In this document: in pieces, positions 43,915-64,000 of the stretch
How positions within the stretch are numbered: the first letter of the stretch is position 1
Layout of the letters: each line of letters opens with the position of its first letter
Assembly: GCF_009831455.1 (NCBI RefSeq)
Contig: NZ_WOWO01000004.1
Coordinates: 496,001 to 560,000 of the forward strand
Origin: Salinirussus salinus
GTDB lineage: Archaea; Halobacteriota; Halobacteria; Halobacteriales; Haloarculaceae
Length of the DNA stretch: 64,000 bases
Reading direction: 5' to 3'
Notes under the pieces: generated by a model
The model's input: the letters and a program-made list of their open reading frames with translations, nothing else
The model's database searches: none
What the model was told of the DNA's origin: nothing
Translations under genes and position numbers: made by a program

Positions 43915-44079
43915 ATATTCGTCTACGATGTCTATTTATCCTTAATTGGGTTCAGACATGCTGGTGAAACCCGCGGTGAGCGATGCCTCAGCTTTCCATA
44001 TAACACGTAGAGATAAAACTCAAACACGAATTGACGGATAGTACTGCCGGCACAGATGTAGTCTGAATTACCTATAAAG

Positions 44080-45375: not shown

Positions 45376-45513
45376 AGACAATAGTACTGCTACTGATTGC
45401 GTAGATTTAGTACCTGACAACAAAACCGTTTTGCTATGTGAGTGCGCGTGTGTTATGTCCTCTTCTGAATTCCAAAACTTAGGGACCAGATGACTAACAT
45501 TAACTCACAGGGG

Positions 45514-46256
45514 GCACTGTCTAGTTGAGAGAGTTTGAGAAGCGAGGAGGCCGTAGCGAGAAGTGTCCATGCAACTCGTAGACCTCCTCAGCGAGACGTT
45601 AGATGAGGACAGTCAAGACGTTTGGGAGAACGAGCGCACGCCGACACCCGCCCGGCGATTTGGGGTGCGTCTCCACTCGTTGGGGCTGTTGATCAGGGAG
45701 ACGGTGGCAATCTTAGAATTGTTGGGTGTCGACCGCTCTCACGGTGCGGTCTGGAATTGGGTGCATACACTGTCTGAAGCACAGAGCGACCCGCCGACGG
45801 CGACGCCGTCGCGGGTCGCGGTCGACGAGAAACAGATCGAGGTTGGCGGCGAAAAGAAGTGGCTCTACGCCGCTGTCGACATCGAGTCAAAACTACTGCT
45901 CGAAGTCGACGCACTCAGCCACCCCGGGACTGACCCCGCGGCGGCGTTCCTGCATCGACTCACCGAGAAACACGATGTTGCCGATTCAGTGTTTCTCGTC
46001 GATGCTGGTGGCTATTTGACTGCCCTGTCACGTCACGATTTGAGCGGTCGGCTTGACTATCGAATGCGGAACCACATCGAAAAGTGGTTCCAAACTGTGA
46101 CCATGCGAATCGACCGCCTTCACGCCTTCTGGAGGGACAGTCAATCCAGGGCGAAACAATGGTTACGACGCTTCAGATACCACTACAACCACGAACGACC
46201 AAACCAAGCGCTTGATGGAACAACGCCAGCTGAGGTCATCCAGAACTAGACAGTGC
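45514..46256 (+). mobile_element. IS6-family insertion sequence (ISH14-like)
   Basis: The inverted ends GCACTGTCTAGTT (45514-45526) and AACTAGACAGTGC (46244-46256) bound a 743-bp element with one transposase gene. The sequence TCACAG occurs on both sides (45505-45510 and 46258-46263), probably an eroded 8-bp target duplication. The element lies between two glycan genes. Confidence 0.85.
45569..46249 (+). CDS. IS6-family DDE transposase
   Basis: A 226-residue transposase from ATG 45569. It has the IS6 DDE core: SRVAVDEKQIEVGGEKKWLYAAVDIES (first Asp), VFLVDAGGYLTAL (second Asp), and RNHIEKWFQTVTMRIDR (Glu), followed by FRYHYNHERPNQALDGTTPAEV. All are present, and the frame is intact with its terminal repeats, so the element may still be mobile. 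Confidence 0.9.
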   Translation: MQLVDLLSETLDEDSQDVWENERTPTPARRFGVRLHSLGLLIRETVAILELLGVDRSHGAVWNWVHTLSEAQSDPPTATPSRVAVDEKQIEVGGEKKWLYAAVDIESKLLLEVDALSHPGTDPAAAFLHRLTEKHDVADSVFLVDAGGYLTALSRHDLSGRLDYRMRNHIEKWFQTVTMRIDRLHAFWRDSQSRAKQWLRRFRYHYNHERPNQALDGTTPAEVIQN

Positions 46257-46263
46257 GTCACAG

Positions 46264-46781
46264 AGATTAGTATAAGCAGTGATACACCTCTGCCGCCGTG
46301 AGTTTCGGGTTCATTGCTGTGAGGAGGTGTTCCGTATTGTCAACAATATTGAATAATAGCTCTTTCGCGCTGCTTTCGCCTGGCGCCAACAGACTCTGTT
46401 GGATACTTCGGGTGCATAGGAGGATGGGTATTCAACAAGCAGGTTGTCGGAGGCGGCCTGCTTCTTGAGATCCCTTGTGATGAAATACGGTGCGTTGTCT
46501 AAGAAGATCAAGAACTTCTCACCGAAGCGGTGCGGAATACTCGTAGGGAGTGCTCCTGACCCCGGTAGCGAATGAGCTGGGCGTCAGCACGGCAAAGTGC
46601 TTGCCAGCGTCAGTGATGGCACCGAGCATACTGATTGCTTCTCGTCCGCGCGAAACCGCAGTTTCTATTAGGAATCCTCCAGAACCTCGCCGGTTTCTGA
46701 GCCGTTGTAACCACTTTCGTAGGAAGCTCAATTACCCCAATCGTATTGTCGGCTGCCTTCAGCGTCGGTTTCTTAATTGAC
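46264..46781 (-). pseudogene. IS630-family transposase remnant
   Basis: Broken reverse frames show IS630 family blocks: MLGAITDAGKHFAVLTPSSF (46519-46731), MIFLDNAPYFITRDLKKQAA with the DNAP aspartate, and CWRQAKAARKSYY (46311-46511), and an end NPKLTAAEVYH near 46270. Frameshifts and stops separate these blocks, so it is not functional. It lies next to the IS6 element, marking an insertion hot spot. Confidence 0.7.
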
Positions 46782-47403
46782 TACAGTTGGATGTTTTATT
46801 TGCGGGATCGGATCTGTAGTGATACAGTTGGCTGTCTGGCGGGACAGCCCGGCCATTGAGACGGTAAACATGCGCATATGAACACGCAACCATGGGTGAC
46901 GATGCGTGGGCGAACAAGCGTGAGTGACCAGGTTGGATTGTCGCAGGTGGTATCTGCCGGCGACGCTGCACGCTTCGCCGTTAGTTCTTTTTATTGTTCA
47001 GCGGGTGGCTGTGATGGGTGACCGGGCTCGAGAGCGTCGCTGAGTGGAGTCATCTCCCGCTCGGCGACTCCTCCAGCCAATTGTAGCCAGTTCGTGCAGG
47101 AACACCGGTGACTCTTTGATTTCATAGAAAGTGAAGCCTGCATTGTCGAGAAGTGCAACGCTCAGTTGCCTGGCTGCTTTCGCGCCGGTCACCCTCGCAG
47201 TTGCTGTCGCAACTGCTTCGGCTCGATACTGACTAACCTAATCCTCTCATGCATCATGACTCTACTACTCGTCCATAATATACCAATCAAGTAACATTAA
47301 CCACAGCATATATGATTATAATTTTACTCAATTTGGTCCCCATCCGTATGGAAGACCGGAACAGTGATGCCGGACCTTATCCTACTAAAGAACACGTGAT
47401 ACG
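46782..47403. other. unassigned region between IS remnants and the FkbM gene
   Basis: No recognisable gene. Short ORFs (for example 46998-47192 reverse) have no family resemblance. From about 47230 the sequence is AT-rich with TATA-like motifs that may drive the FkbM gene. Confidence 0.4.
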
Positions 47404-48291
47404 ATGGCTAGTTCTCTTTCAGAACTAATCTCATCCGCCTATCAGGTTCAGAGGAATGATGGTACTCGTGCTTTGATAAAGAAATTAGATAATCGAATAG
47501 AGCGTTATCTGAAAATCAAAAAGGCTGAGAGGAAAGACAGCTTGGAATTAGAATGTAACAGCACCAATGTAATATTCGACACGACTACCCTCGTTTCTAA
47601 AGACTGGTTTTATCCGAGATATTTAGACGGAACATTACACGAACCAGAGATAACGAAAGAATTGATAGATTCGCTTGGGCCGGATACTGTTTTTTATGAT
47701 ATCGGCGCACTGGTAGGCTATTATACAATTTTCGCGAGTGAAATATGTAAAGAGGGGAAGGTACACGCATTTGAGCTTGATTCTCAGTACTTAAATGCGA
47801 TTCAAAAAAGTCTCGCCAGAAACGGCACTGATGCGATTCTCAACCACAAAGCTATTTCTCATGTGACCGGTGAGAAACTGGGTTACTCAGGCGATGTAGG
47901 GTTTGCATCGATCAATAAAGATGAGAACACGGTACAAACCTGTTCTGTCGAAACCATTAGTTTGGACGAATACACTAAAAATAATGCATACCCTGACATT
48001 ATGAAAATAGATATAGAAGGTTTTGAATATAACGCGCTGAAAGGATCTAAGGCGGTATTTGAAGCAGGATATCCGAAAAAATTGTTTCTCGAACTTCATC
48101 CGCCGAAAATCCGCTCGTATGGGGGGAGTATCCAGGAAATATTGTCAATACTGAAATCCAATGATTACGAGTGCAAACCAATAGCCTATCATAGGGGGGA
48201 TAAAAAAGGAGCTAGAGCGGTTACTACCGATGACATCAATAAGATGGAAAACGTTATGATCATCTGTACCAGACCTGACCACCCATCTTGA
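47404..48291 (+). CDS. FkbM family methyltransferase
   Basis: The 295-residue protein has the FkbM/class I methyltransferase core: VFYDIGALVGYYTIFASEI (SAM-binding loop, about 96-114), KVHAFELDSQ with the acidic ribose ligand, and MKIDIEGFEYNALKGSKAVF (about 199-218), the family signature. Members O-methylate sugars in surface glycans. Low GC and A/T-rich codons point to acquisition with the glycan island. Confidence 0.85.
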   Translation: MASSLSELISSAYQVQRNDGTRALIKKLDNRIERYLKIKKAERKDSLELECNSTNVIFDTTTLVSKDWFYPRYLDGTLHEPEITKELIDSLGPDTVFYDIGALVGYYTIFASEICKEGKVHAFELDSQYLNAIQKSLARNGTDAILNHKAISHVTGEKLGYSGDVGFASINKDENTVQTCSVETISLDEYTKNNAYPDIMKIDIEGFEYNALKGSKAVFEAGYPKKLFLELHPPKIRSYGGSIQEILSILKSNDYECKPIAYHRGDKKGARAVTTDDINKMENVMIICTRPDHPS

Positions 48292-48387
48292 GATGATAGC
48301 CAGATATTTATCCACTTCCAATTGTTCATTCCGATCTGCCAACCGTTGGCTTCACCCATGTCACGCTAGGCCACCGTACAAGATAAT

Positions 48388-49755
48388 ATGACTAAAAACA
48401 TGGACGTCGTCTGGATGATTTTTGACTCACTTTCTTTCGAAGCAACACCGTTTCATAAAGACGGTCCGAATACCATGCCTAGACTTGCTGAATTGGCTGG
48501 TGACAATGCTAAAATCTTTGCGAGAGCGTATGCGCCCGGCCCAACGAGTCCGTCATCTCACGGGTCATTTTTTACCAGCGAGTTGCCTTCGAAAACCGGG
48601 ATGCACGAAGCTCATCCGTACTTCGATTTCAACGGCCCGACTATTGTTTCGGAACTCTCTGAATCTCACTACACCCATCTGATATCGTCAAATCAATTCC
48701 TATTTAATGGTCTTGATGAGGAATTTGATGATACCGAACGTCTCGGGATTTGGAGCCCAACATTTTCTGCTGGAACAAATCCGATGGAGTTCGACCTGAA
48801 TAAAAATGGAATAAAAAAGTACTTTGACTTCCTCATAGCGAACGGCACACCAATTAGGTCACTACTCAATGGAATCCAGTACAAGACTCGTGATCACTGG
48901 GGAGCAGCCGGAAACTATGCTAATGACATCAACGAGTACCTGTATGACTCGGTTGTTGACAGCGATGATGATGCGTTTGCCGTAGCTAATTACATGGACG
49001 TACATCCTCCGTTGACTGCTAGTGATGAGGCTGTGGCGAGATTCGCGCCAGACTGGTCACGTGATGAGTTACCTATCGGGGTCCGAGGGAGAGAGGTATA
49101 CGAAAAATACCAGTCAGACACTGAATACACAGCTGAGGACATGTATGCATTATATAAAGCGGCAGTTTGGGACCTCGATCGTAAAGTCGCGCCACTCGTT
49201 AGAGATATGCTTGAACGCGACACGTTGGTAATAGTCACTGCAGACCACGGTCACGGATTTAGGCGGGATACTGAATTTGAAGATCGGAGGATTCACGTCC
49301 CCCTCCTTGTTTTCTCTCCCGAAAGCAACGGCCAGGTGCGAAATGAAACAGTGAATCTCAGGTCGTTACCGAAGACCACGCTAGCTGCCCTTGGCCGTGA
49401 TACCGGTGGGTTCCGTGGCACGAATCTGCTAACTCAATCCAGGTCACAGCTATCCCTCACCGAATTCGTATATGACGACCAATTTGGGGTGCGACCAGTG
49501 CCACCGGATGAAAACGGGAAACACACCGCAGGACCAGGATCACTCAATTACCGCATCACCGGGATAAGAGACGGTACCCGTGTAGATTACGACGGTAGCC
49601 GATATCCTGTGGTGACCGGTAACGACCCCGATGACATCGTACGAATCAAGAACGATTTGAAAAATATACACGAAGAGGGTGTTAATCTCGGTGAAACCGC
49701 TCCAGAATACGACAACGCTACCGAGGAGCACCTCAGAAAACTTGGATATTTGTGA
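48388..49755 (+). CDS. sulfatase-fold (alkaline phosphatase superfamily) enzyme
   Basis: The 455-residue protein has the metal site of the superfamily: DVVWMIFDSLSFEATPF with the first Asp, SPSSHGSFFTSELP (nucleophile region), and VTADHGHGFRRD with DHGH. The sulfatase C/S-x-P-x-R signature is replaced by a T-S-P-S-S sequence, so it lacks the formylglycine Cys and may be a phosphoryl- or sulfo-transferase of the glycan. It starts an operon: 4-base overlap with the deacetylase. Confidence 0.8.
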   Translation: MTKNMDVVWMIFDSLSFEATPFHKDGPNTMPRLAELAGDNAKIFARAYAPGPTSPSSHGSFFTSELPSKTGMHEAHPYFDFNGPTIVSELSESHYTHLISSNQFLFNGLDEEFDDTERLGIWSPTFSAGTNPMEFDLNKNGIKKYFDFLIANGTPIRSLLNGIQYKTRDHWGAAGNYANDINEYLYDSVVDSDDDAFAVANYMDVHPPLTASDEAVARFAPDWSRDELPIGVRGREVYEKYQSDTEYTAEDMYALYKAAVWDLDRKVAPLVRDMLERDTLVIVTADHGHGFRRDTEFEDRRIHVPLLVFSPESNGQVRNETVNLRSLPKTTLAALGRDTGGFRGTNLLTQSRSQLSLTEFVYDDQFGVRPVPPDENGKHTAGPGSLNYRITGIRDGTRVDYDGSRYPVVTGNDPDDIVRIKNDLKNIHEEGVNLGETAPEYDNATEEHLRKLGYL

Positions 49756-50567
49756 CTCGAACCAAGCAGATGGCAAAGCGAATCATGTCGGCTGTGAGTC
49801 CACTTGTTTCACCGTTCCTTCGAAGTGGTCCGCTTGTTCTCAACTATCATGCTGTTGGCAACCCGGACCGCCCGTTTTCGATTAGCGTTGATCGGTTTGA
49901 ATCCCACGTGAAGTTGGTGGAAGAGTCCGAGTACACCGTCCGTACACTCTCCGAACTCGTTTCTGACGGGTTTCCTGAGTCTTCGGTAGTATTCACTTTT
50001 GACGACGGGGACGAAACGCAGGTAAAAAACGCTGCACGGATTTTGGATTCGAAGGGCCTCAGTGGAGTGTTCTTTTTAACAACACAGTGGCTTGGAACCT
50101 CAGATTATATGAGTTGGCGGCAAGCCAGAGTACTTGCAGAGAATCATGAGATTGGTGCGCATACTCGGACTCATCCCGACCTCTCTGAGCTGAGTTGTGA
50201 CAATCTCGTTGATGAAATCATCGGTTGCAAGAATGAGCTTGAGCGGGAACTTGAAACGCCTGTTGATCACTTCGCTTATCCATACGGGCAAGAAGACCAC
50301 ATTTCTCAGACTGCAATTAGCATCGCCAAGGAAGCTGGCTTCAGGTCAATAAGTTCCACAACCGGATTCCTCCCCGGCGAGATCCGCTGTTTTGACCCGC
50401 GCACGCCCGTTCTCATAGAGCGGATTCCCGTAGATGATGCAACACCTACCGAATTCGAACAGTTACTTGCACAAGAGAAGTTAGGCCCGAATTTCGTCTA
50501 CGCCAAGCTTGACCCCAGACACAAACCTGACTCCTTTTATGAGAACTTTCGGAAACAGACCCGATGA
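49752..50567 (+). CDS. polysaccharide deacetylase (NodB fold)
   Basis: The gene starts at a GTG (49752) overlapping the stop of the sulfatase-fold gene. The 271-residue protein has TFDDGDETQVKNAARIL (first metal and base Asp pair) and EIGAHTRTHPDLSEL with the two metal His, then YPYGQEDHISQTAI. It likely deacetylates an N-acetyl sugar in the surface glycan. Translational coupling supports shared function with the sulfatase-fold enzyme. Confidence 0.87.
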   Translation: MTRTKQMAKRIMSAVSPLVSPFLRSGPLVLNYHAVGNPDRPFSISVDRFESHVKLVEESEYTVRTLSELVSDGFPESSVVFTFDDGDETQVKNAARILDSKGLSGVFFLTTQWLGTSDYMSWRQARVLAENHEIGAHTRTHPDLSELSCDNLVDEIIGCKNELERELETPVDHFAYPYGQEDHISQTAISIAKEAGFRSISSTTGFLPGEIRCFDPRTPVLIERIPVDDATPTEFEQLLAQEKLGPNFVYAKLDPRHKPDSFYENFRKQTR

Positions 50568-50598
50568 GGTTTAATACCCAGTGGCTGGTTTCCACACT

Positions 50599-51276
50599 AT
50601 GGTTGACACTCCTCGGTGGGCGAAGGCACAACAAGCAGAGGCAAATCACGAGACTCACCATTCTGGTTTCCGTGATCCACACCACGCTGAAGCGTATTTC
50701 AAGGAATTCTGGAATAGTACGATTGAGTCGATTGAAGATGAGTCCGTCTTGGCCGTTGGAGCCGGGACTGGCATAATCCATACGGTGGAACAACCTCGCA
50801 TACAGGTCGCTGTTGATCCCTTGTACGCAATTAGTGATATTGACTTGACTGGGAGCCGAGCGTCCAATATCACAGGCGCTGGTGAAGCCCTGCCATTTCC
50901 CGAGGCCAGTTTTGACACAGTTATATCAAACAATGTGCTAGATCATACTCAGAAGCCACGAGCAGTGCTGCAGGAAATCGCGAATGTTATCAAAGACAAA
51001 GGCCGATTTCTCTTAGTAGTAAACACGTTTGACCTTCCCGGATTCATCAGACAGAACTTGAGGTTAATTGACACACCCCACCCTCATCATTTCAGCACAT
51101 CCGAAATTGAACAGCTACTCGTAGATTCTGGCTTCGAGATCACCTACTCCTCTTCCGAACCCAGGTTTACTAGTGACAGCATCCCGCAACTCATTACCGA
51201 AGGAAAATTCAAGAAAGCAGGTGGAAAGCTGTCCCGGATAAATCTGTACACCGCGGTATGTCATCCTAATAAATAA
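50599..51276 (+). CDS. class I SAM-dependent methyltransferase
   Basis: The 225-residue protein from ATG 50599 (GTG at 50581 is an alternative) has motif I VLAVGAGTGII, acidic VAVDPLYAI, and ASFDTVISNNVLDHTQKPRAVLQEIANVIKDKGRFLLVVN, the Methyltransf_11 fold. The first motif lacks one of the usual Gly residues but keeps GxG. Substrate is probably a sugar in this locus. It follows the deacetylase after 31 bp. Confidence 0.83.
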   Translation: MVDTPRWAKAQQAEANHETHHSGFRDPHHAEAYFKEFWNSTIESIEDESVLAVGAGTGIIHTVEQPRIQVAVDPLYAISDIDLTGSRASNITGAGEALPFPEASFDTVISNNVLDHTQKPRAVLQEIANVIKDKGRFLLVVNTFDLPGFIRQNLRLIDTPHPHHFSTSEIEQLLVDSGFEITYSSSEPRFTSDSIPQLITEGKFKKAGGKLSRINLYTAVCHPNK

Positions 51277-51402
51277 TATAATACGAGTGCACAAAAACAA
51301 GCGCATATAAGTGTCCTGGGAGACAAAAATCAAAAATGTACTCCAGGTGTTGGGGTCAGATTAAAGTATGTATTTTAATAATAAGAAGCCGAAATTGCAT
51401 AT

Positions 51403-52512
51403 ATGAATACTGATAATGACCGACAGGTGGAGAGGGTACTTTTGTTCACGCCGAAATACCCTCCCTCACGGGGTGGTGCTGCCGTCTTCTATTCTAACAT
51501 AGTCCGTACCACTGACGAACAAATACGATTCTTCGTAGTCACGAAATATGAGAAGGGGGAGACAATTATCCAGGAAGAAGATAATGTTACCATCTATCGA
51601 CTTCTACCTAGAACGGATCTGCTTCCGCGGTATCTCCGGGTCGTCCTTGAAATGTTTGTTTTGGCTATCGTCTGCCTGTACTTGGTCACAACAGAATCTA
51701 TCCAAATCATTCACGCCCATGCCTCCTCATTCTCAGTACTCGCTCTGTCAGCCGTCGCTGCCGTTTCCAGAGTTCCACTGATCAACGATTGCCGAGACGA
51801 AGCATTCCGCCCGTGGCTAATCAAGCTGGGACCCACACCGGTCTGGTTCAGTTGTGCACCAAACATTGACAGTATACTTATTAAAAACGGTATCCCAGAG
51901 AGACGGATCATCAGGCTTCCAGTCGTTAATCCAGAGTATGTCAGCAACTATGAATCAACTGGTCGGAAAGGGAATGATATGTTGCATCTCATCCATGTTG
52001 GCTCAATAAGAGAAGAGAAAGGCGTGTTCTTGTTACTCGACACTCTTGAACACCTACATGAACAAGGTGTCAGTGCGCGGTTGACCCTTATTGGAGATGG
52101 CCCAGAGATGGAGAATCTACGACGGTCCTGTAATGAGAGGGTGATTAAAGAGTGTGTCACGATTGCGGGCCGCCTTGACCACCGTGAAACGCTGAATCAC
52201 CTTGCCGCCGCCGATGTGCTGGCCCTTCTCTCGGAGTCAGAAGGAATTCCTCGGGTTGTACTGGAGGCTCAAGAGATCGGGACTCCAGTGGTCGCCACTT
52301 CAGCAGGTGGAATTCCCGAAATCATTGATGATGAAAAAACTGGCTTGCTTGTCAGCCGGACGGCGTCCTCAGCCGCGGAAGCAATCAATTGCCTGTTCTC
52401 GGATGAGGAGCTTTATGAAACCATTACAACGAATGCTAAACAGGAGAGGCAACGAACTTGGGACCATGCAGCGGAACAACTATACGAAGGATACCGGAGG
52501 GCTTTAGACTAA
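51403..52512 (+). CDS. GT4 glycosyltransferase
   Basis: The 369-residue GT-B enzyme begins VLLFTPKYPPSRGGAAVFYS (acceptor domain, glycine loop). The donor domain has HLIHVGSIREEKGVFLLLDTLEHL, LIGDGPEMENL, and ALLSESEGIPRVVLEAQEIGTPVVAT-like EX7E (Glu-Ser-Glu-Gly ... Glu), the retaining GT4 signature. It is convergent with the O-antigen ligase-like gene. Donor sugar unknown. Confidence 0.88.
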   Translation: MNTDNDRQVERVLLFTPKYPPSRGGAAVFYSNIVRTTDEQIRFFVVTKYEKGETIIQEEDNVTIYRLLPRTDLLPRYLRVVLEMFVLAIVCLYLVTTESIQIIHAHASSFSVLALSAVAAVSRVPLINDCRDEAFRPWLIKLGPTPVWFSCAPNIDSILIKNGIPERRIIRLPVVNPEYVSNYESTGRKGNDMLHLIHVGSIREEKGVFLLLDTLEHLHEQGVSARLTLIGDGPEMENLRRSCNERVIKECVTIAGRLDHRETLNHLAAADVLALLSESEGIPRVVLEAQEIGTPVVATSAGGIPEIIDDEKTGLLVSRTASSAAEAINCLFSDEELYETITTNAKQERQRTWDHAAEQLYEGYRRALD

Positions 52513-52600
52513 TCCTCCCTCACTTTTATGAACAAGTTTCAAGATATCAGACTGTCTCTCCGAATTCTCAGTCTGTATTGTGTAATTCCCCGGACCAAAC

Positions 52601-53830
52601 CTATCCACTAGTCGGCATTGAGTTTTGCGTCTGATTTGATTGCAATTGATCCGTTGAGAGAGCGAGTGCCAGAACAACCCACGTAGTCTTCGTGAATCCA
52701 GGTTGGAAATTGGATTCGACGAAGACCGCACAGATACTGGCAAATAAAGCAATGGCGATCGCATACCTTTTGTCTGATACATGCATCCCTCGCAGGAGAA
52801 ACATCAATACGATTACCCAAATTCCCAAAACCAGCAGGAGTGATGGAATTCCGGTTCGCGCGGTCAAGTTCACGAATCCATTATGAATGTCGTGGGGGCC
52901 TTGATAGAATTGTCTGAGGTTCCCGAAACCCACTCCGAAAACCGGGAACGACTTGGCAATCTCTACACCGCTGCGATATTGGGAAATCCTAGAGAAAAAT
53001 GTGTCAGGTCGGATTTTAATCAAGATTTGTACTACCAAAGGACTTAAAAAAATGCCGATCACACCTGCTGCGATTCCCATCTCCCTAAAATACGCTTTGC
53101 GCCTTCTGATCAGGTAGCCTAGAATAACGATCGCTGTCGCCACCCCTGCAACTGCCCATGTGCTTCTTGATTGGCTTAACAAAACGGCAAATAGCACCGT
53201 AGCGACACCGAGCAGACAGCCTTTGGCTCTTTTTTTGAGCCCAATGTAGGCATAGTACGGCGTGGCCACCATCACATACATCCCAAACGCTCCATATGTC
53301 ATATCAACGCCCAAAGACCTCTGGAACGGGATAGTGATCCCGGCAACGGCCCGCGCTCCCCTATATTTATCACCGAAAGGGAAGCCGTTTGGATATAAAA
53401 CAACAATATGAATTATCGTAAGGATGCTGATTAACACCGCCGACAGGAACGCTGCGTGTAGCAGCGAGTGCAAGTCTCGTTCAGAATCAACGTACAGAAA
53501 GATTGCGATCGTGAATAGAAGATATCCTCCGAAAGTCACTACCCGCCGGGGGGAACCAGAGTGGATGAGCGTACTAACACTTTGTTGGAATAAAAGCAAA
53601 ATTAAAAGCGCTATGACGGCGACCTGTGGCTTTGTCAATCCTATCGATTTTCTTCGATATTCAACACAACCGAAAGCCACGAACGTGAGTACTATTAGTA
53701 TGTTGGGGGCCGAAAGGTTCGCCAAGCCAGTTTCAACGGATATGGACCCAAAGGGGATCGCAAAAATCGCCATGGGCAGGAGATAATTTGACGGTGTTCT
53801 GCTCTTCAAAATAAATCCCCTTGCGTCCAT
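52601..53830 (-). CDS. O-antigen ligase/polymerase-like membrane protein (Wzy_C)
   Basis: The 409-residue polytopic membrane protein has about 10-12 transmembrane segments and the family's external loop with conserved basic and His residues: SPRRVVTFGGYL, LLSQSRSTWAVAGV (S-R-S/T in the WaaL-Wzy loop), GVGFGNLRQFYQGPHDIHNGFVNLTARTGIPSLLL. The PHDIHNGFV block matches the Wzy_C/O-antigen ligase signature. It may polymerise or ligate glycan units outside the cell. It lies opposite to the flanking genes. Confidence 0.83.
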   Translation of the reverse strand: MDARGFILKSRTPSNYLLPMAIFAIPFGSISVETGLANLSAPNILIVLTFVAFGCVEYRRKSIGLTKPQVAVIALLILLLFQQSVSTLIHSGSPRRVVTFGGYLLFTIAIFLYVDSERDLHSLLHAAFLSAVLISILTIIHIVVLYPNGFPFGDKYRGARAVAGITIPFQRSLGVDMTYGAFGMYVMVATPYYAYIGLKKRAKGCLLGVATVLFAVLLSQSRSTWAVAGVATAIVILGYLIRRRKAYFREMGIAAGVIGIFLSPLVVQILIKIRPDTFFSRISQYRSGVEIAKSFPVFGVGFGNLRQFYQGPHDIHNGFVNLTARTGIPSLLLVLGIWVIVLMFLLRGMHVSDKRYAIAIALFASICAVFVESNFQPGFTKTTWVVLALALSTDQLQSNQTQNSMPTSG

Positions 53831-54315
53831 CTTACTATGCGTGATTCACCGGAGGCTTATAATAGGGTGGAATCCTCGATATACACTGAAACATTCCGGC
53901 GTCTAACATTGAATCTGAAAACAGCAGCAGGATAGCGCCATTCTAATCGTGAGACCGAATCGGGGGAAGCGGATGTGACCAAGCCCTCTCCTTCCGAATT
54001 ATAAATTAAATAACATATATCAAAAGTGTTGTACCGCCAGCCCCACGGTGTGCGCTCCACCCGGCAAAGATCTTGCCGGCTGAAACATCTGAATTTTGGC
54101 TCTAAAATCTTGAATAAACTGTCAAAAAGTGAGACCAACGGTTCCCGCAAGTCCAATAGCGCAGACTAGTGCCTCCGTACTGCAATTCCAATCAACAATC
54201 TGTTGTATTTGTTGCTACTGGCTCATGTCAAGCTTATCAATCCAGAATGATAATCGCGACGTGCCTCACTTCAAAAACCACAACACTGAAATCCGGACCA
54301 AACGCACTCAAATCT
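53831..54315. other. intergenic, AT-rich
   Basis: No gene of its own was found between the Wzy-like gene and the next sulfatase-fold gene. The in-frame extension of the latter back to 54169 is uncharacteristic and lacks family resemblance. Probably promoters for both divergent genes lie here. Confidence 0.4.
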
Positions 54316-55512
54316 ATGCCCATCGCGGATTTACGTGGTAAGCAGGTTAATAGCGTCTATCTCTACATCGGTGACGCTGTACGGTGGGACTCCATGCCTG
54401 ATGACTTGTTGAATGCTGGCCTTGCAGTCAAATCAATCGCGTCTGGGATTCACTCACCCACAAGCATAGCGAGCATTGTATCCGGAACCTATCTTCCTCA
54501 GCACAGAGTGGAAGATTTCGGCGACCGAATTTCCGAGGAAGTGGTTAATCTTCTCCAAATGGATGATGTGGAAACGCGGTTTCTAAATACGATTAACAAC
54601 GTTAGATTTGACTCAGGCGACTCGAAAAGCCCGATAGTCGACACTCTCGATACGACACTATCCGGACCGGAAGCGCTTGAGCAAGTCGACCAGCCCTTTT
54701 TTGTTCTTGAACGCGGTCCAGGGGGACACGCCCCATACAATCGCGACCTGACTGCGAAAGAATATTTTGAGTCACGGGGCCAAGCCGATAGGTCACAATT
54801 CAAACGCGAGTATGATGAGGCAGTAGCCGAGGATGTTGATTGGTTCTTCAATCGCGTTGAACTCCTACGGGAGCGTGGTCTGTTGGAGGATACGTTGGTG
54901 ATCTACGTGAGTGATCATGGCGAACTCCTCGGTGAAAAGGGGATGTTGGCACACTCACTACCCATTCACCCTAACCACGTCTACGTCCCTGCTGTGTTCA
55001 TGCATCCAGAGATAACCACAGAAATCGTTCGGAAGAGGGTGGTTCGACACGTTGATCTCGCACCGACGATTCTCGATTTTCTTGGATCTGACGTTGAGTC
55101 CGTAATCCCGATGGCGGGTCGCAACCTAACACAGCAGCCCCCCGCCGAACACGGAGTGACTTTTCATAAGAGTACAAAGAAGCTCTCATCCACGACGGTG
55201 CGGTTTGGAGCAACTGGAGCCTGGGATTCTAACGGGGGCTACGTATTTTGTGAGTCAGGGAATACGAAACAGCTCTTACTTGCGATGAAGCGACTGCTCC
55301 GATTGCCTTGGCGCCAGTACGCAAGACGGAACCTTATTGAATACCTCTCTGCTTACCTCGCACATGATCGGGTGTACGGAACACCCAGTTTCGACAAGGA
55401 AGCGGCCGTAGGGTACCTGAATGAAATTGAAGAATCACGCACCCCAGTAGACGGGAACGAATCTTTCACCGTTCCCGAGGATCGTCTTAAGGAGCTTGGC
55501 TATCTCGAATGA
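54316..55512 (+). CDS. sulfatase-fold (alkaline phosphatase superfamily) enzyme
   Basis: The 398-residue protein (start MPIADLRGKQVNSVYLYI at 54316) has YIGDAVRWDSMPDDLLNAG (first metal Asp), GIHSPTSIASIVSGTYLPQH (nucleophile region), RHVDLAPTILDFLGSD and YVSDHGELLGEKGMLAHS (Asp-His pair). The sulfatase Cys-x-Pro-x-Arg signature is missing. It may hydrolyse or transfer a phospho- or sulfo-group in the surface glycan. It ends with DRLKELGYLE, similar to the first sulfatase-fold protein. Confidence 0.82.
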   Translation: MPIADLRGKQVNSVYLYIGDAVRWDSMPDDLLNAGLAVKSIASGIHSPTSIASIVSGTYLPQHRVEDFGDRISEEVVNLLQMDDVETRFLNTINNVRFDSGDSKSPIVDTLDTTLSGPEALEQVDQPFFVLERGPGGHAPYNRDLTAKEYFESRGQADRSQFKREYDEAVAEDVDWFFNRVELLRERGLLEDTLVIYVSDHGELLGEKGMLAHSLPIHPNHVYVPAVFMHPEITTEIVRKRVVRHVDLAPTILDFLGSDVESVIPMAGRNLTQQPPAEHGVTFHKSTKKLSSTTVRFGATGAWDSNGGYVFCESGNTKQLLLAMKRLLRLPWRQYARRNLIEYLSAYLAHDRVYGTPSFDKEAAVGYLNEIEESRTPVDGNESFTVPEDRLKELGYLE

Positions 55513-55589
55513 ACGAATTTTGTATCAGGCGCGACAGGATCGCCGTGGTATTTCGCCTGATTGGGATGGTCTCAGTCCGATAGCATTTA

Positions 55590-56657
55590 ATGTACATAGC
55601 GATACTCCAGAATTCGGTTGGCATCGGCGGTCGTAGCAAGGTCCTCGCGGCAACTCTTGACTTGCTGACTGATCATGCACGCTCTGTGGATATCCATACC
55701 CTAAGCAAAACCGATAAGATCCGTCGCTTTTTAACTCATTATGACCTAAACCAGGCGAATCTGAATACGATAATTCACCGCGGCTCAAGTATTCCAGGGA
55801 CGATTTATCAACAACCTTTCCTGAACCTGGTCGTTCGGAATTCCCTCTCGAAATATGATCTCGTGTTCAATTCAAACAACTGTGTTCGGTTTCTACCGGA
55901 AGAGCCTAGATACATCCATTACATCCACTTTCCTAACTCTCGAAACCCACTGATTGACCCGCGGCGGAAGAAGCTACTATATAAATTCGCCTCTGCTCCT
56001 ATGAGGGTACTATCTCGCCTGGGAACTCCGAGACCTCAGGGGGAGGTGTTCGCCAACTCAGAGTACACGCTACAGCATATTAGGCAAGCGTTTGATTCAT
56101 CTAGTGCTCGTGTCTTGTACCCACCAGCTATTGAATCGGTCAAATTTTCAGGATTTATGGGAGATGGCGTGGTCTCGGTTGGGTCCTTCCATCCGAACAA
56201 ACGTCAACTGTTCCAACTCCGTATAGCCAGTCGTTTTCCCGAAACCCGCTTCAGGATCGTTGGGTCCGTATCTTCGGAGTCATATTACGAACGCTGCGAA
56301 CAATACATCTCAGACCATGCGCTGGATAATGTGAATTTGCTAACTGACATCTCAGACAGGGATCTGTACGATATCCTCGACCGCAGCGGGATCTTTTTTC
56401 ACACGATGCAAAATGAGCGCTTTGGTATTGCAACGGTTGAGGGACTCAACCACGGCTGTATTCCTGTCGTACATGACTCTGGTGGGCAACGTGAAGTCGT
56501 CCCCGATTCTAAATTCCGATTTAATACCACCTCAGATTGCGTATCGACTCTAAAAAGAGCTCTTTCAGGCAGACATCCTGACGATCAGGAGACAAAAGAA
56601 CACTTGCGCCAGTTCACCAGAAAACGATTCCAGGAGATGCTTTCGTCTATCATCTAA
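55590..56657 (+). CDS. GT4 glycosyltransferase (ALG11-like)
   Basis: The 355-residue GT-B enzyme begins MYIAILQNSVGIGGRSKVLAAT (the glycine loop region), with IHFPNSR in the middle, SVGSFHPNKRQLFQLRIASRF, FRIVGSVSSESYYERCEQYI, and HTMQNERFGIATVEGLNHGCIPVVHDSGGQREVV, the E-x7-E signature. The general pattern is like eukaryotic ALG11-type mannosyltransferases. Donor sugar is unknown. Confidence 0.83.
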   Translation: MYIAILQNSVGIGGRSKVLAATLDLLTDHARSVDIHTLSKTDKIRRFLTHYDLNQANLNTIIHRGSSIPGTIYQQPFLNLVVRNSLSKYDLVFNSNNCVRFLPEEPRYIHYIHFPNSRNPLIDPRRKKLLYKFASAPMRVLSRLGTPRPQGEVFANSEYTLQHIRQAFDSSSARVLYPPAIESVKFSGFMGDGVVSVGSFHPNKRQLFQLRIASRFPETRFRIVGSVSSESYYERCEQYISDHALDNVNLLTDISDRDLYDILDRSGIFFHTMQNERFGIATVEGLNHGCIPVVHDSGGQREVVPDSKFRFNTTSDCVSTLKRALSGRHPDDQETKEHLRQFTRKRFQEMLSSII

Positions 56658-56732
56658 TTCCGGAGAAGTGGTCCCCTCTTTGGTCCGGTCGTGATGCGTA
56701 GTGTTTTGTCAATAATCGATTCTTTTCCGCTC

Positions 56733-57854
56733 TTATGCGAGTAGTCGTTCGTAGAGTCGGACAATTTCTTTTTTTTCGCGATCGATCGTGAATCGCGTCG
56801 CCTCGGATCGACAGCTGCGCGCCATCTGGTGGCGCAACTCTGGCGATCCGAGTAACTTGTCGAGCGCCCCAACTAAACCGTCCACGTCCCCGGGTTTAAT
56901 AAGGAAACCAGACTCACCATCCGTAACTTGCTCTGGTATCCCCGCAACCCGAGTAGAGACGACCGGAACGCCGGAGATGAGCGCTTCCGAAATCACGCGT
57001 GGCGTACCTTCTCTATAAGACGGTAGTACAAGCACGTCTGCCGCCGCCAGCAGACGCGGTACGTCGTCGCGATAGCCAAGAAAATGGATTGTGGCATCCA
57101 TGCTCTTCCGCTTGACCTCTCGCTTGAGATCAGGTGCCAGAGGCCCGTCTCCGGCGATCAGTAGGTCAACGTCATACCGGCCTACCAACATTTCGAAGGA
57201 ATTGAGAAGATCAAACAGCCCTTTACCACTCTGTAGCCGACCGACAAACAACAGTCGTAGTTGGCTAGTGGATTCGGGAAGCGGTGCCGGCGACGCAGTA
57301 CTGAATTCCTCAATGTTTACGCCGTGGTAGATCAACTCGTATTGATCCTGTGTACCGATCCCCCTTCTTAAGAACAACTCCTGGATTCGTTCTGACTTCA
57401 CGATGAGCGTTGTTGCCAACGGAGCGGACAGTCGTTCCACAATCCAGATGAACGCGTTCAACAAGGTTTGACGATCGGCGGCGATGGGATCTCCGTGTAT
57501 CTCATGAATAGTGACCGGTGTTCTGGCAAGTAGTGACGCCCACCGGCCGATCACGCCTGCTTCCGTACTGTGGGTGTGGAGTAGGTCCACTTGTTGTTCT
57601 CGTAGGAACTGAGCAACCTGCACGACCGCTGGAATAGTATGAACTAACGAATAATGTCTGATGTGATCGAAGACATGAGTCTGGACGCCCATTTCCTCCA
57701 TCACCCTCATTCTCTCTGCATCATGCTCGCGACCGACCCCCAGGTGCAGTTCGTAATCGGAGCCAGTCTCAAGCAAGCCCTCTATCTGATGTTCAACGGT
57801 GGTTTCGGCACCACCGTCGAGGAATCTGGTAATGAGGTGGAGCACACGTGTCAT
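56733..57854 (-). CDS. GT4 glycosyltransferase
   Basis: The 373-residue protein starts MTRVLHLITRFLDGGAETTV at the ATG that overlaps (ATGA) the stop of the upstream deacetylase. GT4 marks: IHEIHGDPI, LRLLFVGRLQSGKGLFDLLNSF, LLIAGDGPLAPDLK, and PSYREGTPRVISEALISGVPVVST (EX7E). It is the last gene of a three-gene reverse operon with a deacetylase and a phosphodiesterase-type enzyme. Confidence 0.88.
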   Translation of the reverse strand: MTRVLHLITRFLDGGAETTVEHQIEGLLETGSDYELHLGVGREHDAERMRVMEEMGVQTHVFDHIRHYSLVHTIPAVVQVAQFLREQQVDLLHTHSTEAGVIGRWASLLARTPVTIHEIHGDPIAADRQTLLNAFIWIVERLSAPLATTLIVKSERIQELFLRRGIGTQDQYELIYHGVNIEEFSTASPAPLPESTSQLRLLFVGRLQSGKGLFDLLNSFEMLVGRYDVDLLIAGDGPLAPDLKREVKRKSMDATIHFLGYRDDVPRLLAAADVLVLPSYREGTPRVISEALISGVPVVSTRVAGIPEQVTDGESGFLIKPGDVDGLVGALDKLLGSPELRHQMARSCRSEATRFTIDREKKEIVRLYERLLA

Positions 57855-58816
57855 AGACTCGCCTGTCTTTCCCACCGTCCGTTTCTGTACGCTTCAGCCA
57901 CTTGCCGCATCGTGAGGACGTCGAGACGGTCATCATCTCTCAAGTGCTCTGCGTGAGCGAGGGTCGCTTCGAGCGCGTTCAAGAGCTGCCCAGAGTTACG
58001 AGCGAAATTGAACGGGTGGAACCAGAGGTGAAAGATTCGTCCCGTTTGGGCCGCCCGGTTAAGCCCGGCAATTGCCCGGGTGCGCTGAGAATGTACCGGA
58101 GTATATTGCCACCCACCATGATACGGTCTGAATACCTGTGATCCAGGCACTTCGACCAATCCTGATTCCGTACGCGGGAGGACCGTTGGAGGTGTCCATT
58201 GTATTGTTTCTTCGGCAAACCGTGCGCCCTTTCGCAGTGTCGTTGGCATCTGCAATCTCTCGTGCCAGCGGCTGTTGATGCCTCTGTACACCTCAAATCC
58301 GACATCACTGAGCAGATCTTGATGATCAATTTCGTTTCGCGGGTAGACGAATGATGACAGGTCGATATTATATCGCTTTGCTACAGCCATCGACTGCTCT
58401 ATATCAACACGAGCATCTTCCCGCGTCGATTCACTGAAAACCAGATGCGTGTGTGTGTGTGAGCCGATGTCATGGTCCATCCTCGCGTTTTCGAGCCAAT
58501 TGAGAACCCGTGGCTCGTACCACAACTCCGGATCCATCTCTTGTTGACACGGGAGGGCAACGTTCCGATTGTCTCGTTCGCAGGAGTCCGAGTATGACTG
58601 CTCGTTTGGCTCCGAACCACGGCAGTCTATCAGGAGATGTGTTACAAGAGCCCACGTAACAGGAATCTGATACCGGTCGAAGAGATCGAGAAGGTTACGG
58701 ATGACACTCCGCGTTCCGGCGTATCGTACCGGATCCACTGGCCCTGTGTCAAACATGCCCCATACTAGCTCAGTGTCGAGTGACACGACCAGCGCACCAG
58801 ACGATTCGTCACTCAT
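57851..58816 (-). CDS. polysaccharide deacetylase-like protein (NodB fold)
   Basis: The 321-residue protein begins ALVVSLDTELVWGMFDTGPV (the D-x-E metal/base site of the fold), then DIGSHTHTHLVFSE with the two His ligands, and SSFVYPRNEIDHQDLL. It corresponds to the WbmS/NodB-type deacetylases in surface polysaccharide loci. It overlaps both flanking genes by 4 bases (ATGA), a clear operon. Acts probably on N-acetyl groups of the glycan or a precursor. Confidence 0.85.
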   Translation of the reverse strand: MSDESSGALVVSLDTELVWGMFDTGPVDPVRYAGTRSVIRNLLDLFDRYQIPVTWALVTHLLIDCRGSEPNEQSYSDSCERDNRNVALPCQQEMDPELWYEPRVLNWLENARMDHDIGSHTHTHLVFSESTREDARVDIEQSMAVAKRYNIDLSSFVYPRNEIDHQDLLSDVGFEVYRGINSRWHERLQMPTTLRKGARFAEETIQWTPPTVLPRTESGLVEVPGSQVFRPYHGGWQYTPVHSQRTRAIAGLNRAAQTGRIFHLWFHPFNFARNSGQLLNALEATLAHAEHLRDDDRLDVLTMRQVAEAYRNGRWERQASL

Positions 58817-60375
58817 TCATTAACGTATCCGAGGTCGGACAATCTTTTGTAGACGGCCCCGTTGGTGTTGCGGGTGGTTCCAGTGTCTGCTTCAACCCAC
58901 TTGATGTCCTTGACTCGTGACTTGCGTGAATGCATTTCTGCCTCCTCGGAGAAGAGTTCATGTCGTGGCTTGCCATCCATGGCTTTAGGAATTGACGCGT
59001 CGTGAAATTTCAACAATGTCGGTGCGAGGTCGGTTATACGGAGGTCATCAAGTTCTACTTCTGGGTTGATTTCTGGCCCATATGCAATAAATAGTCCTGT
59101 ATCTTTGTTTTCACCTGTCCATGTCTTGGGCCTTCCGAACACCTGATCTACGCCGATACCACCGTTAATATGGACGTTTGTAGATTGGTTCAATAGAATG
59201 TCCGGCCCATCGCTGGTGTAGGGTCCTTTGTAGACGGACTCGGCCTGCAGTGCCTGTTTAATCACGAGATTCCCCTGGGGATCTCGAAGCCTATCGAGTT
59301 TCTCAATGAGATCCTCTTGCACACTTTGTCGTTTCGATGGAGAATCCGCGATTACATACAGCGGTCCCTGTCCGCTAGCTATTGCAGTAGATTCTCCCCA
59401 GTCGATCAGCTGCCCCTTAGCACTTCGCTTGACCCGCCCCTCAGAATCCGGCAAGAGGTCTTGAACCTCAGACGGGACGATCCGCCGTAACAGCCACTCA
59501 ATACGGAACCGATTCAAAAGAGGACGGATACGGTCTCGGGTTATCCCGAGTCGCTTCATCACGTCACTCGCCCCTGTCTGTCGAACTAAGTATCCCTCTT
59601 CTTCGAGCCATGTGTTGATGTTAAATTCGATTTCGATCCGGTTAGATCCGTGGTCCGACATTACGAATAAGTGGTCCAGTTCTTCGTTGTCCAGCAGTGT
59701 CCCGATATGTTCATCAATTATCTCCCATGCGCTGCGGACAACCTCACGGTCCCAGTAGAAATGATGCAGAACATTAATGTAGAATACCGTTGCGTGGATC
59801 AGGGTATACTCGCCAGATTTAAGTCGATCCTCAAGCACCTGGAACCGCTGCTTGATCAGGCGGTTAATCTCGTCGATACAGCCGTTTTTTTGATCGTATT
59901 TTGATAATTGTGATAACAGTTCGGGGTGTACTTGGTAGTCATAATTGATGCGGAGTTGATCCTCTAGCTCCGTAGGATGCGTGTATCCCGACTGTTCGCT
60001 GCCCGGACCTCCAGCGATGAACTCTCCGTTCACCTTGGAAGGCGGCGATCCTGTTGGGAAGTTTATAATGGATACCTTTCCGTCAAGCAGGTCCCAGTAC
60101 TCGCCGCCGTCGAACTGTTCGGACGAATTAATTGACTCGATAGAATGTTCCTCTCTGTTGACTCGCTCCCACCAGAATACCCCGAGCTTTCCGGGATTGA
60201 TTCCACTGGCATAACACCGCCAGTTTGGACAGGTCACTGGTGGAAGCCAGCTTTGCATGTCCATCGCTGCACCTTCCGAAATAAGCCTCCGCAGATTTGG
60301 TAAGTGTCCGGAATCAGTCCACTCCTGTATCAACTCGAAAGCCGCCCCGTCCAGTCCAAGCACTACAGTTGTCAT
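58813..60375 (-). CDS. type I phosphodiesterase/alkaline phosphatase superfamily enzyme
   Basis: The 520-residue protein starts MTTVVLGLDGAAFELIQEWT (first metal Asp), with the nucleophile area in PPVTCPNWRCYASGINPGKLGVFWWE (Thr before Cys-Pro) and LFVMSDHGSNRIEIEF (Asp-His). It matches the type I phosphodiesterase/nucleotide pyrophosphatase family. Substrates could be a phosphodiester-linked substituent of the glycan or a nucleotide sugar. It heads the operon with the deacetylase and GT4 genes. Confidence 0.85.
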   Translation of the reverse strand: MTTVVLGLDGAAFELIQEWTDSGHLPNLRRLISEGAAMDMQSWLPPVTCPNWRCYASGINPGKLGVFWWERVNREEHSIESINSSEQFDGGEYWDLLDGKVSIINFPTGSPPSKVNGEFIAGGPGSEQSGYTHPTELEDQLRINYDYQVHPELLSQLSKYDQKNGCIDEINRLIKQRFQVLEDRLKSGEYTLIHATVFYINVLHHFYWDREVVRSAWEIIDEHIGTLLDNEELDHLFVMSDHGSNRIEIEFNINTWLEEEGYLVRQTGASDVMKRLGITRDRIRPLLNRFRIEWLLRRIVPSEVQDLLPDSEGRVKRSAKGQLIDWGESTAIASGQGPLYVIADSPSKRQSVQEDLIEKLDRLRDPQGNLVIKQALQAESVYKGPYTSDGPDILLNQSTNVHINGGIGVDQVFGRPKTWTGENKDTGLFIAYGPEINPEVELDDLRITDLAPTLLKFHDASIPKAMDGKPRHELFSEEAEMHSRKSRVKDIKWVEADTGTTRNTNGAVYKRLSDLGYVNE

Positions 60376-60628
60376 TCGCTGAAATAGGTTCCTTCTGAAC
60401 CTTTACGTCTACGGCTTATGATAAACGCGACGATTAATGTCTGTGTATTCCGATTCGTTACGTTCCGTTGGCATTCCGCTCAATTACCACTCTCTTTATG
60501 TATTTCTGATATTCCGAATCGGATCTGTCGCGGCTGGCCAGTACGTCTGTTTCGTTTGTTATTCGCCGTTCGAAGACGTTGCCAATAACTCCGAGTAGAG
60601 CCCGTCTCTAGGTCGTATTCAGATTGCG
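60376..60628. other. intergenic sequence
   Basis: AT-richer DNA with no gene and no visible RNA structure before the repeat array. Presumably contains the promoter of the operon starting at 60375. Confidence 0.35.
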
Positions 60629-61085
60629 GACAGACGAAATCTCCTCTCCTCGTGAGCATCTGTGTTCGGATTCTGGTACGACACAACCGAGAGCGGTCCG
60701 TCTATGGCGGCTCGACAGACGAAATGTCCTCTCTTTTTCTCAGGCTCGTTCGATCGCCGGTTCGGTGATGCAGACGAAGTACACCGACTGTCGTTGGAGT
60801 CACAGGCCTCTCACCGACTGGGGTAACAGACGAACTGTACTCTCTCTCGTTCAAACAACGAGCGGCGTTGCGTGCCTGGGTCAACAGACGAAATGTACTC
60901 TCCCTCACTCTGCACAGAAGCCACCTCACGCACTGGAGGTGAACAGACGAACTGTACTCTCTCTCGTTCGAACAACGAGCGGCGTTGCGTGCCTGGGTCA
61001 ACAGACGAAATGTACTCTCCCTCACTCTGCACAGAAGCCACCTCACGCACTGGAGGTGAACAGACGAACTGTACTCTCTTTTCGT
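60629..61085. repeat. interspersed 20-24-bp repeat array, eight units
   Basis: The motif (R)ACAGACGAA(A/C)TGTACTCTC occurs with the core CAGACGAA at 60631, 60716, 60771, 60827, 60885, 60944, 61002 and 61061. Spacing is 85, 55, 56, 58, 59, 58 and 59 bp. The last intervals form a 117-bp tandem duplication (60825-60941 and 60942-61058, one difference). The first three units are degenerate (60631 with ATCTCCTCTC, 60771 with GTACACCGAC). ORFs exist on both strands but look like shadows. No cas gene is nearby, and intervals are not unique. Confidence 0.85.
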
Positions 61086-61248
61086 CCACGGGTGGGAGAC
61101 GAGATGCGCTCCAAGCGAGGGCTGCTCAGTTCGACACTCTCGTCGGCAAGACCGCCACTCCACACCCCACTGTTTCCGAAGCTATCTTGTCCACGAGGGC
61201 GTCTTGGCCGGGAAATCAGGAAGTCCAATAGCAGCGGAAACGGTGGTT

Positions 61249-61464
61249 TCAGGTGTCTCCGACGACCCACCAGACGACCGCTCGGGCCCCGACGTCTTTC
61301 CGCTTGACCCTGTCCTGCTCCTCCAAGGTTTCGAGTTTCCTGAGTGCGGTTCGACGTGAAACATCGAGTAGCTCTCCAATTTCACTGGCAGTCAAAACAA
61401 GATCCTCGCTCTCCTCGAAGACGGCGAGGACATCGTCTGGTGTCGTCTCTGGTGTGCGGGGCAT
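61249..61464 (-). CDS. small winged-helix regulator
   Basis: The 71-residue protein starts MPRTPETTPDDVLAVFEESE and has a winged helix: LTASEIGELLDVSRRTALRKLETLEEQDRVKRKDVGARAVVWWVV. It is like the DNA-binding half of the wHTH protein at 22632. A TATA box (61491-61499, reverse) is 27 bases before the ATG and a CCTTCGAAGG-containing repeat lies right upstream of it. It likely controls the divergent small-gene operon and itself. Confidence 0.82.
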   Translation of the reverse strand: MPRTPETTPDDVLAVFEESEDLVLTASEIGELLDVSRRTALRKLETLEEQDRVKRKDVGARAVVWWVVGDT

Positions 61465-62267: not shown

Positions 62268-64000
62268 CTACCGTCTGCGGTTCACTCTACGCGAGCCAGT
62301 CGCGGCTCCGTTCCGTCTGCTTCCCTGATCAAGGCTGTCAGTCGACTCCTCGTCCTTCCCACCATCCAATGCCTCCGAAGACGCCCCTGCCCGATTCTGA
62401 CCCTGCCCGTCGATTACTCGCGCCTCGGCATCACTCGCCCGAACTCTCACCGGGAACCACCCCTCCTGGTCGATCCCGACCAACGCCTCTGAGTACCCCT
62501 CCTCTTCCTTGCCGGGCTTCGCTGTCTTCACCCAATCCACTTGCCGGTCGTTCAGGTCGAACCACTGGCCAATTTTCTCGCCCTCCTCGTTGACCCGATG
62601 CAACACCGTCACCGAACAGAGATTGGCGATCGTCTGTGCTTCCGGCGTCAGCGTGAATTCCCCACCGGTCTGGGTGATGAACTCCAGACTCAACTCGAAA
62701 TGCCGGCTGTGCCGGACGGCCGTCTCCAGGAAGTCCAGCGAGACGGCGTCGTTCATCAGATAGTGGGCTTCGTCAATACAGAAGACGACCTTCTTCTCGG
62801 TCTGTTTGGCGCGCTCGTAGACACTGTTGAACAACACCTGCATCATGAGACTCGTCTCCGCCCGCCCCTGGGCACCCTCCTCTTGATGCAAGTCCAGGTA
62901 GAGGGCTTTTGAGGAGAGCTCGAACTCGGATTGTTTCGCGAGGTTGGCCAACTCACCATCCTCACGGAAGGACGGCCGCAAATCCTTCAGCAACGATTGG
63001 GCATCCCGCCGGACAGCCGTCTGCTCGCCGTCAGTGACGTAGCCATAGGATTCCGGCTCGTCGGCCATTCCCTCCAGCACAGCAATCACGTCCTGGATGG
63101 TCGGCGATTCCCGACCATGCGTCGACGGGTCGCGGGTGATCCCGCGAGAGTCATACGCTTCTTGCACAGCCCGCCGCAGCGTCTGACTGCGCTCGCCGAG
63201 AGAGTGGTCTGCCACGTGGTCGAAAAACGTCCCGAAGAAGGTCATCACCCAGGTGATCTGCTCGCCCCACGGGTCGATGTCCTTCACCGCTCCGAGCACG
63301 TCCTCGGGTGTCGGCTGGATCTCCAGAGGATTCAATCCCCGGCGGCCACCGACGGTGACACGCTCGGCACCGAGCGCTTCGGCCACGCTCGCGAACCCCC
63401 GCATCGGGTCGAGCATGATGATGAGCGTCTCCTCGTCGAACATCGCTCGGCGCAATAACCGCAATTTCGTCGCGAACGACTTCCCCGCACCCAGGCGCCC
63501 GATAACCATCGCACAGTACCCCGTGTCCCGCTCGAAGCGGTCGAGGATGAGTGGACTCGCGTTCAACGCGTAGGTCCCGTACTCGATACCGGGCTCGGCG
63601 AAGGCTCCAGCCACGAAGGGAAACATCGCACCTACGGCCCCACCGAGCATCGGCGTCTGACTGTTGAGTGTCTCGGTACACTCGTCACACGCCACCGGAC
63701 TCGCGGCTGTAAAGGCCTGCAACTGTGCCAGCCGCGGAACGATCGGTGTCAGGTTGGTCGGTGCCTGGCGCCCGGTCGTGGCCACGGCATCGGTGGCAAG
63801 CTCCTCTTTCGTATCGCCGCGGACAGTCAGATACATCGAGACGTCGAAGGCTTGCATCGCAGTGTTCCGGAGGACGTCGTACATCTCCTGGTGGTCCTCG
63901 AGGTCGCGCTGGACACCCCGGGCACTCGCCCGGTGTTTCTCCTGGAGGTACTCGTTGTCGGCCTCCAAGTCCTCGATCTTGTTCTCGAGGGAGTTCAGCG
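62268..64000 (-). CDS. virB4: VirB4-type conjugation ATPase, N-terminus beyond the window
   Basis: The frame encodes at least 577 residues, open to the window edge; the apparent start at 63968 is a TTG within a coiled coil (LENKIEDLEADNEYL), so the gene continues further right. It has Walker A GRLGAGKSFATKLRLL, Walker B VVFCIDEAHYL, and the VirB4 family RFERDTGYCAMVIG and ITQTGGEFTLTPEAQTIANLCSVTVL pattern. The N-terminal part has TRGDTKEEL-like region and CDEC. It would power a type IV secretion or conjugation machine of an integrated element. The C-terminal tail is Asp/Gly/Ser-rich. Confidence 0.87.
   Translation of the reverse strand, partial: LNSLENKIEDLEADNEYLQEKHRASARGVQRDLEDHQEMYDVLRNTAMQAFDVSMYLTVRGDTKEELATDAVATTGRQAPTNLTPIVPRLAQLQAFTAASPVACDECTETLNSQTPMLGGAVGAMFPFVAGAFAEPGIEYGTYALNASPLILDRFERDTGYCAMVIGRLGAGKSFATKLRLLRRAMFDEETLIIMLDPMRGFASVAEALGAERVTVGGRRGLNPLEIQPTPEDVLGAVKDIDPWGEQITWVMTFFGTFFDHVADHSLGERSQTLRRAVQEAYDSRGITRDPSTHGRESPTIQDVIAVLEGMADEPESYGYVTDGEQTAVRRDAQSLLKDLRPSFREDGELANLAKQSEFELSSKALYLDLHQEEGAQGRAETSLMMQVLFNSVYERAKQTEKKVVFCIDEAHYLMNDAVSLDFLETAVRHSRHFELSLEFITQTGGEFTLTPEAQTIANLCSVTVLHRVNEEGEKIGQWFDLNDRQVDWVKTAKPGKEEEGYSEALVGIDQEGWFPVRVRASDAEARVIDGQGQNRAGASSEALDGGKDEESTDSLDQGSRRNGAATGSRRVNRRR

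Follow-up and report, generated by a model that had tools for sequence, protein, structure and literature searches.

The datA locus of E. coli and the incA iterons of P1 are initiator-binding repeats, which lie outside the origin and titrate the initiator. In Haloarcula hispanica, an ORB-rich region named oriC2D is located downstream of oriC2-cdc6E and contains 11 ORBs in 722 bp (PMC3936714). This region lies beside its cdc6E gene and resisted deletion; it lacks ARS activity and exerts a negative effect on oriC2, probably through titration of Cdc6E (PMC3936714). Haloarchaeal ORBs have so far been defined by a G-string; every Orc family is paired with its own ORB, and the survey of these boxes retained only those with a G-string (PMC3528665).

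Here, we describe a repeat array in a window of 64,000 nucleotides from Salinirussus salinus (the whole stretch of DNA that was analysed). Like oriC2D, it is a cluster of many boxes, here predicted to be Orc/Cdc6 boxes, and apparently no origin in itself, with 7-8 boxes in 457 bp as compared with 11 in 722 bp. However, oriC2D adjoins its own cdc6E, whereas the window genome appears to lack the cognate orc. Among tested systems oriC2D is the closest precedent; if the window array behaves alike, it would titrate its cognate Orc whenever this protein is present. With datA and incA, the array shares initiator-binding repeats outside an origin (binding in the window is predicted); datA and incA, however, serve other initiators and no cognate initiator is known in the window cell. 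The anatomy of the array fits an initiator-titrating locus of the oriC2D/datA type, but the cognate initiator is absent from the assembly. The complete form is shown by a plasmid of Halocatena marina RDMS1 (WP_248910674.1), in which 11 boxes at exactly 56 bp are followed by one inverted box and then by orc. The box sequence is the same and the tandem spacing is alike (56 bp versus 55-59 bp in the window), but the window array has neither the orc nor the inverted box. ORB clusters and the Cdc6-titrating oriC2D are already known, and the orc-less array on a mobile element is a variant of this kind; we found no published description of an orc-less, element-borne ORB cluster.

Results

A motif scan detected seven copies of ACAGACGAAMTGTACTCTC with up to two mismatches, all on the + strand, between positions 60630 and 61078 of the window; according to 100 dinucleotide shuffles, no match is expected by chance. 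Unit 1 (ACAGACGAAATCTCCTCTC, 60630..60648) has two mismatches and unit 2 (ACAGACGAAATGTCCTCTC, 60715..60733) has one. Units 3 (ACAGACGAACTGTACTCTC, 60826..60844), 4 (ACAGACGAAATGTACTCTC, 60884..60902), 5 (60943..60961), 6 (61001..61019) and 7 (61060..61078) have none. Direct reading of the sequence revealed a degenerate eighth unit on the same strand, GCAGACGAAGTACACCGAC at 60770-60788, which keeps the register of the adjacent units (55/56 bp). When it is counted, the start-to-start distances are 85, 55, 56, 58, 59, 58 and 59 bp. Sequence comparison further showed a tandem duplication (60825..61058) with two boxes per block: a 117-bp block at 60825-60941 recurs at 60942-61058 with 99% identity and a single change. 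The first-pass annotation had described eight units, mostly at 55-59 bp spacing, a 117-bp block duplicated with one change and a location beside a conjugation gene. All of this was reproduced, with the refinements that seven units are near-identical and one is degenerate, that one step is 85 bp and that the gene encodes a VirB4-type ATPase (at 62268). The independent units are 84-95% identical, whereas the 36 bp after each unit are only 22-44% identical. This retention of the units beside diverging flanks, and the recent enlargement of the cluster by duplication, support a function. Elsewhere in the 3.37-Mb genome, the array motif has no match at up to three mismatches. Searches with the array DNA found no similarity in plasmid and phage collections and no Rfam match.

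The array occupies the intergenic region 60376..61248, between the genes for a type I phosphodiesterase family protein (58813..60375, - strand; PF01663, E 8.5e-28) and a small HTH_11 protein of 71 aa (61249..61464, - strand; Pfam PF08279, E 1e-6). A conjugation cluster lies beside it. The VirB4-type conjugation ATPase (709 aa; 62268..64000, - strand, continuing to contig position 560397) adjoins a TrbL-like gene, and a T4CP gene is 30 kb off. Window positions 41000-60400 form a low-G+C island (about 43-54%) in a contig of 70% G+C; the island directly adjoins the conjugation cluster and bears glycosyltransferase and phosphodiesterase-type genes. Contig C4 of the window genome encodes a TnpB/IS605-type protein with OrfB and Cas12f-like TNB domains (582131-583030), and fragments of this protein are also present close to several of the other ORB arrays. 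No repeats or flanks homologous to the array were found next to 20 related VirB4 genes. Therefore, we rejected the idea that the array is a fixed part of the VirB4 module; the motif is absent at the equivalent place beside these genes.

We searched 392 genomes of the order for the motif at up to two mismatches. It is present in 126 of them, often clustered, and the reversed control pattern was nearly silent in the same search. Absence from all relatives, which the first-pass annotation had named as an outcome that would refute it, is thus not what was found. When gene contents were compared in 20 kb of DNA around each of 20 motif clusters, one Orc1/Cdc6 family was the gene family common to most clusters, with the repeats flanking it directly. 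The seed of this family is a 405-aa Orc (L053:9607-10824), whose plasmid-borne close relatives are annotated as orc1/cdc6. Among the 392 genomes, 47 have at least three motif copies, 71 have a clade Orc gene (at least 400 bits) and 37 have both. The clade Orc gene is found in 37 of the 47 genomes with at least three copies versus 34 of the 345 others (Fisher p 3.6e-23, a value that is only a guide because the three-copy threshold and the bit cut-off were picked post hoc and related genomes are not independent). Moreover, all eight loci selected by Orc protein similarity alone bear box clusters beside orc; two of these loci had already surfaced through the motif.

A box matrix was built from 115 boxes at orc-flanked loci, with the window left out; its consensus is GAACAGACGAAAYGTACTCTCTC. 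The seven window units score 25.5-35.5 bits on this matrix (26.2, 25.5, 34.4, 34.9, 35.5, 34.9 and 31.7 bits for units 1 to 7), with a training median of 39. Unit 4 agrees with the consensus of the orc-flanking boxes, and the degenerate unit falls below the threshold. No other match in the rest of the 695-kb contig reaches 18 bits. Thus, members of the motif family are intergenic and neighbour the orc1/cdc6 genes of a single clade, and the window units fit the box of this clade, while the window locus itself has no orc. The consensus ends in CTCTCTC and does not contain the G run found at the end of published haloarchaeal boxes. Because the orc-flanking copies do not possess a G-string either, its absence seems to be a trait of the clade and not of the window in particular. 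For related plasmid Orcs, the boxes are similar but not the same: AACACTCGAAACGTACTCTC in Halorussus and AACAGCGGACA in the pNG700 type. This fits the pairing of one ORB with each Orc family (PMC3528665). Taking together the clade association, the eight protein-selected loci, the genome overlap and the matrix scores, we read the window repeats as very probably ORBs, that is, predicted binding sites, of this Orc1/Cdc6 clade. The gene content also bears on another proposal of the first-pass annotation, that the repeats are an operator array for the HTH protein at 61249. An operator or partition array for this or another DNA-binding protein would suit the position of the HTH gene, 170 bp from the last unit. 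However, no HTH homologue was detectable beside any other ORB cluster, whereas orc genes are consistently there. Therefore, we rejected the HTH operator and consider this kind of array very improbable.

The array repeat and haloarchaeal CRISPR repeats have the stretch CAGACGAAC in common, and a degenerate CRISPR array was considered on this basis. The intervals, however, are duplicated and uneven in length rather than unique and even, no Cas1 was found anywhere in the genome, and no interval sequence was found in viral contigs; these gave three single-copy motif matches, without an Orc. Furthermore, Haloferax/Haloarcula-type CRISPR repeats score -19 and -12 bits on the ORB matrix, as against +25 to +35 for the units of the window. 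The shared CAGACGAAC therefore looks coincidental. We rejected the CRISPR explanation, whose probability is close to nil; the earlier view that the array is not a CRISPR and has no cas genes agrees with these results, and for Cas1 it now extends to the whole genome.

The S. salinus genome encodes six Orc-like proteins. None of them falls inside the cognate clade (clade support 100/99) or above the protein threshold, and no matching boxes are present within the fetched 17-20 kb near their genes. The surroundings of the array yielded neither an orc gene nor a remnant of one; the best remnant match (38 bits over 29 residues) is at contig position about 577.6 kb, beside a transposase gene. The array is thus an orphan: a cognate-clade Orc does not appear in the assembly (4 contigs, 99.8% complete), although a plasmid missing from it is possible. 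On contig C3 of the same genome (759112-768039; L075), two genes for Orc-like proteins (336 and 338 aa) adjoin a second copy of VirB4, which is 82% identical and contains one in-frame stop; this locus appears to be a further conjugative element, whose Orc is of another type.

A functional origin next to orc/cdc6 would be expected to have inverted boxes around an AT-rich element and an adjacent orc. In the array region (60376..61248), all boxes face one way, there is no inverted box and no marked AT-rich peak, and the GC skew has no inflection at the array. An orc is absent as well, and an active origin at this site was rejected on the GC skew. The first-pass suggestion of an origin or iteron-like site of the integrated element was right in class, since the repeats very probably correspond to Orc1/Cdc6 ORBs and clade orc1/cdc6 genes flank the motif elsewhere, but a working origin was not borne out.

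Orc-less boxes near VirB4 or T4CP genes were observed in at least five other haloarchaea (G326, G202, G084, G225 and G116). The boxes of G326, for example, are upstream of T4CP by about 240-300 bp and those of G225 adjoin T4CP, while G082 (L060) has an intact orc-box-T4CP arrangement. These positions directly upstream of T4CP and the intact unit would suit an orc-less origin working in trans, in which case replication or mobilisation of the element would be limited to hosts that supply the cognate Orc. Yet clade origins have an inverted box and usually adjoin orc, whereas the window array has one orientation, no AT-rich element and no GC-skew turn, and oriC2D on its own has no ARS activity (PMC3936714). 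An origin in trans is therefore unlikely.

Other loci show stages of loss. In L093, a truncated orc lies between the boxes; in L094, the boxes flank 1.1 kb and the orc is gone; near VirB4 in G354 and G149, the orc is partial or interrupted by a stop. At the expected place of the orc, L094 (9427-10359; G364) has two paired genes similar to p99/p134 from the element in the window, which may be a replacement of the toxin-antitoxin type. In G173, boxes are 13 kb from VirB4, and this locus is better read as decay because a 105-bit orc fragment is found among the boxes. Orphan clusters without a conjugation gene in the DNA checked include L061, L063, L066, L087 and L098. These stages agree with the main rival to a titrating function, a plain relic: a former plasmid ori-orc pair would have lost the orc, the inverted box and the unwinding element after integration, and its boxes would decay without function. 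A relic explains much, including two altered window boxes and the degenerate unit. In contrast, one independent unit has the exact consensus while its flanks differ completely, the cluster was enlarged by a recent duplication, and orc-less arrays with intact boxes recur in several unrelated elements. We regard a relic as quite possible, though less probable than a titrating function.

On the chromosome of Halospeciosus flavus, twelve boxes at 42-46 bp spacing lie in one orientation (L066:9782-10273; G180:C1:701.8-702.3 kb). There is no orc within the 60 kb checked around this array, and clade Orcs are encoded on the same chromosome at 2.96 and 3.13 Mb, more than 2 Mb away. This makes the array a strong candidate for a locus that titrates Orc on its own.

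Discussion

The window very probably carries a tandem ORB cluster for a plasmid-type Orc1/Cdc6 clade, on what appears to be an integrated conjugative element from which the initiator gene is missing. By analogy with oriC2D, we propose, at an evenly balanced level of confidence, that the array is the initiator-binding half of the element's replicator and would act as a titrating or incompatibility site when a cognate Orc is given, being otherwise dormant. The cognate Orc would arrive via a co-resident plasmid or in a new host after transfer of the element, and its molecules would load onto the seven same-facing boxes. Having no inverted partner box, AT-rich unwinding element or orc in cis, the cluster would be unable to fire; free Orc at the cognate origin would drop, which would result in titration or incompatibility. 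Because the clade Orc is absent from the present genome, the array is probably silent there now.

Several observations count against this proposal. There would be nothing to titrate in this genome unless a plasmid was missed, related conjugative elements do not have the array at an equivalent site, the boxes do not have the G-string of published haloarchaeal ORBs, and a relic left without repair would have nearly the same appearance.

A previously unexplained repeat can now be read as predicted initiator-binding DNA. In addition, a box consensus without a G-string was obtained for an Orc clade of about 18% of the sampled haloarchaea (71/392), and such boxes would escape the published survey, which demanded the G-string. 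More speculatively, and in our view with a low probability, orc-less ORB arrays may be functional decoys on haloarchaeal conjugative elements, which sequester the Orc of one replicon clade and exclude or destabilise competing plasmids. If this is true, decoy arrays would represent an initiator-titration form of plasmid immunity. The stand-alone arrays in S. salinus, in Halospeciosus flavus and on several conjugative elements are natural test cases for archaeal Orc titration and plasmid incompatibility.
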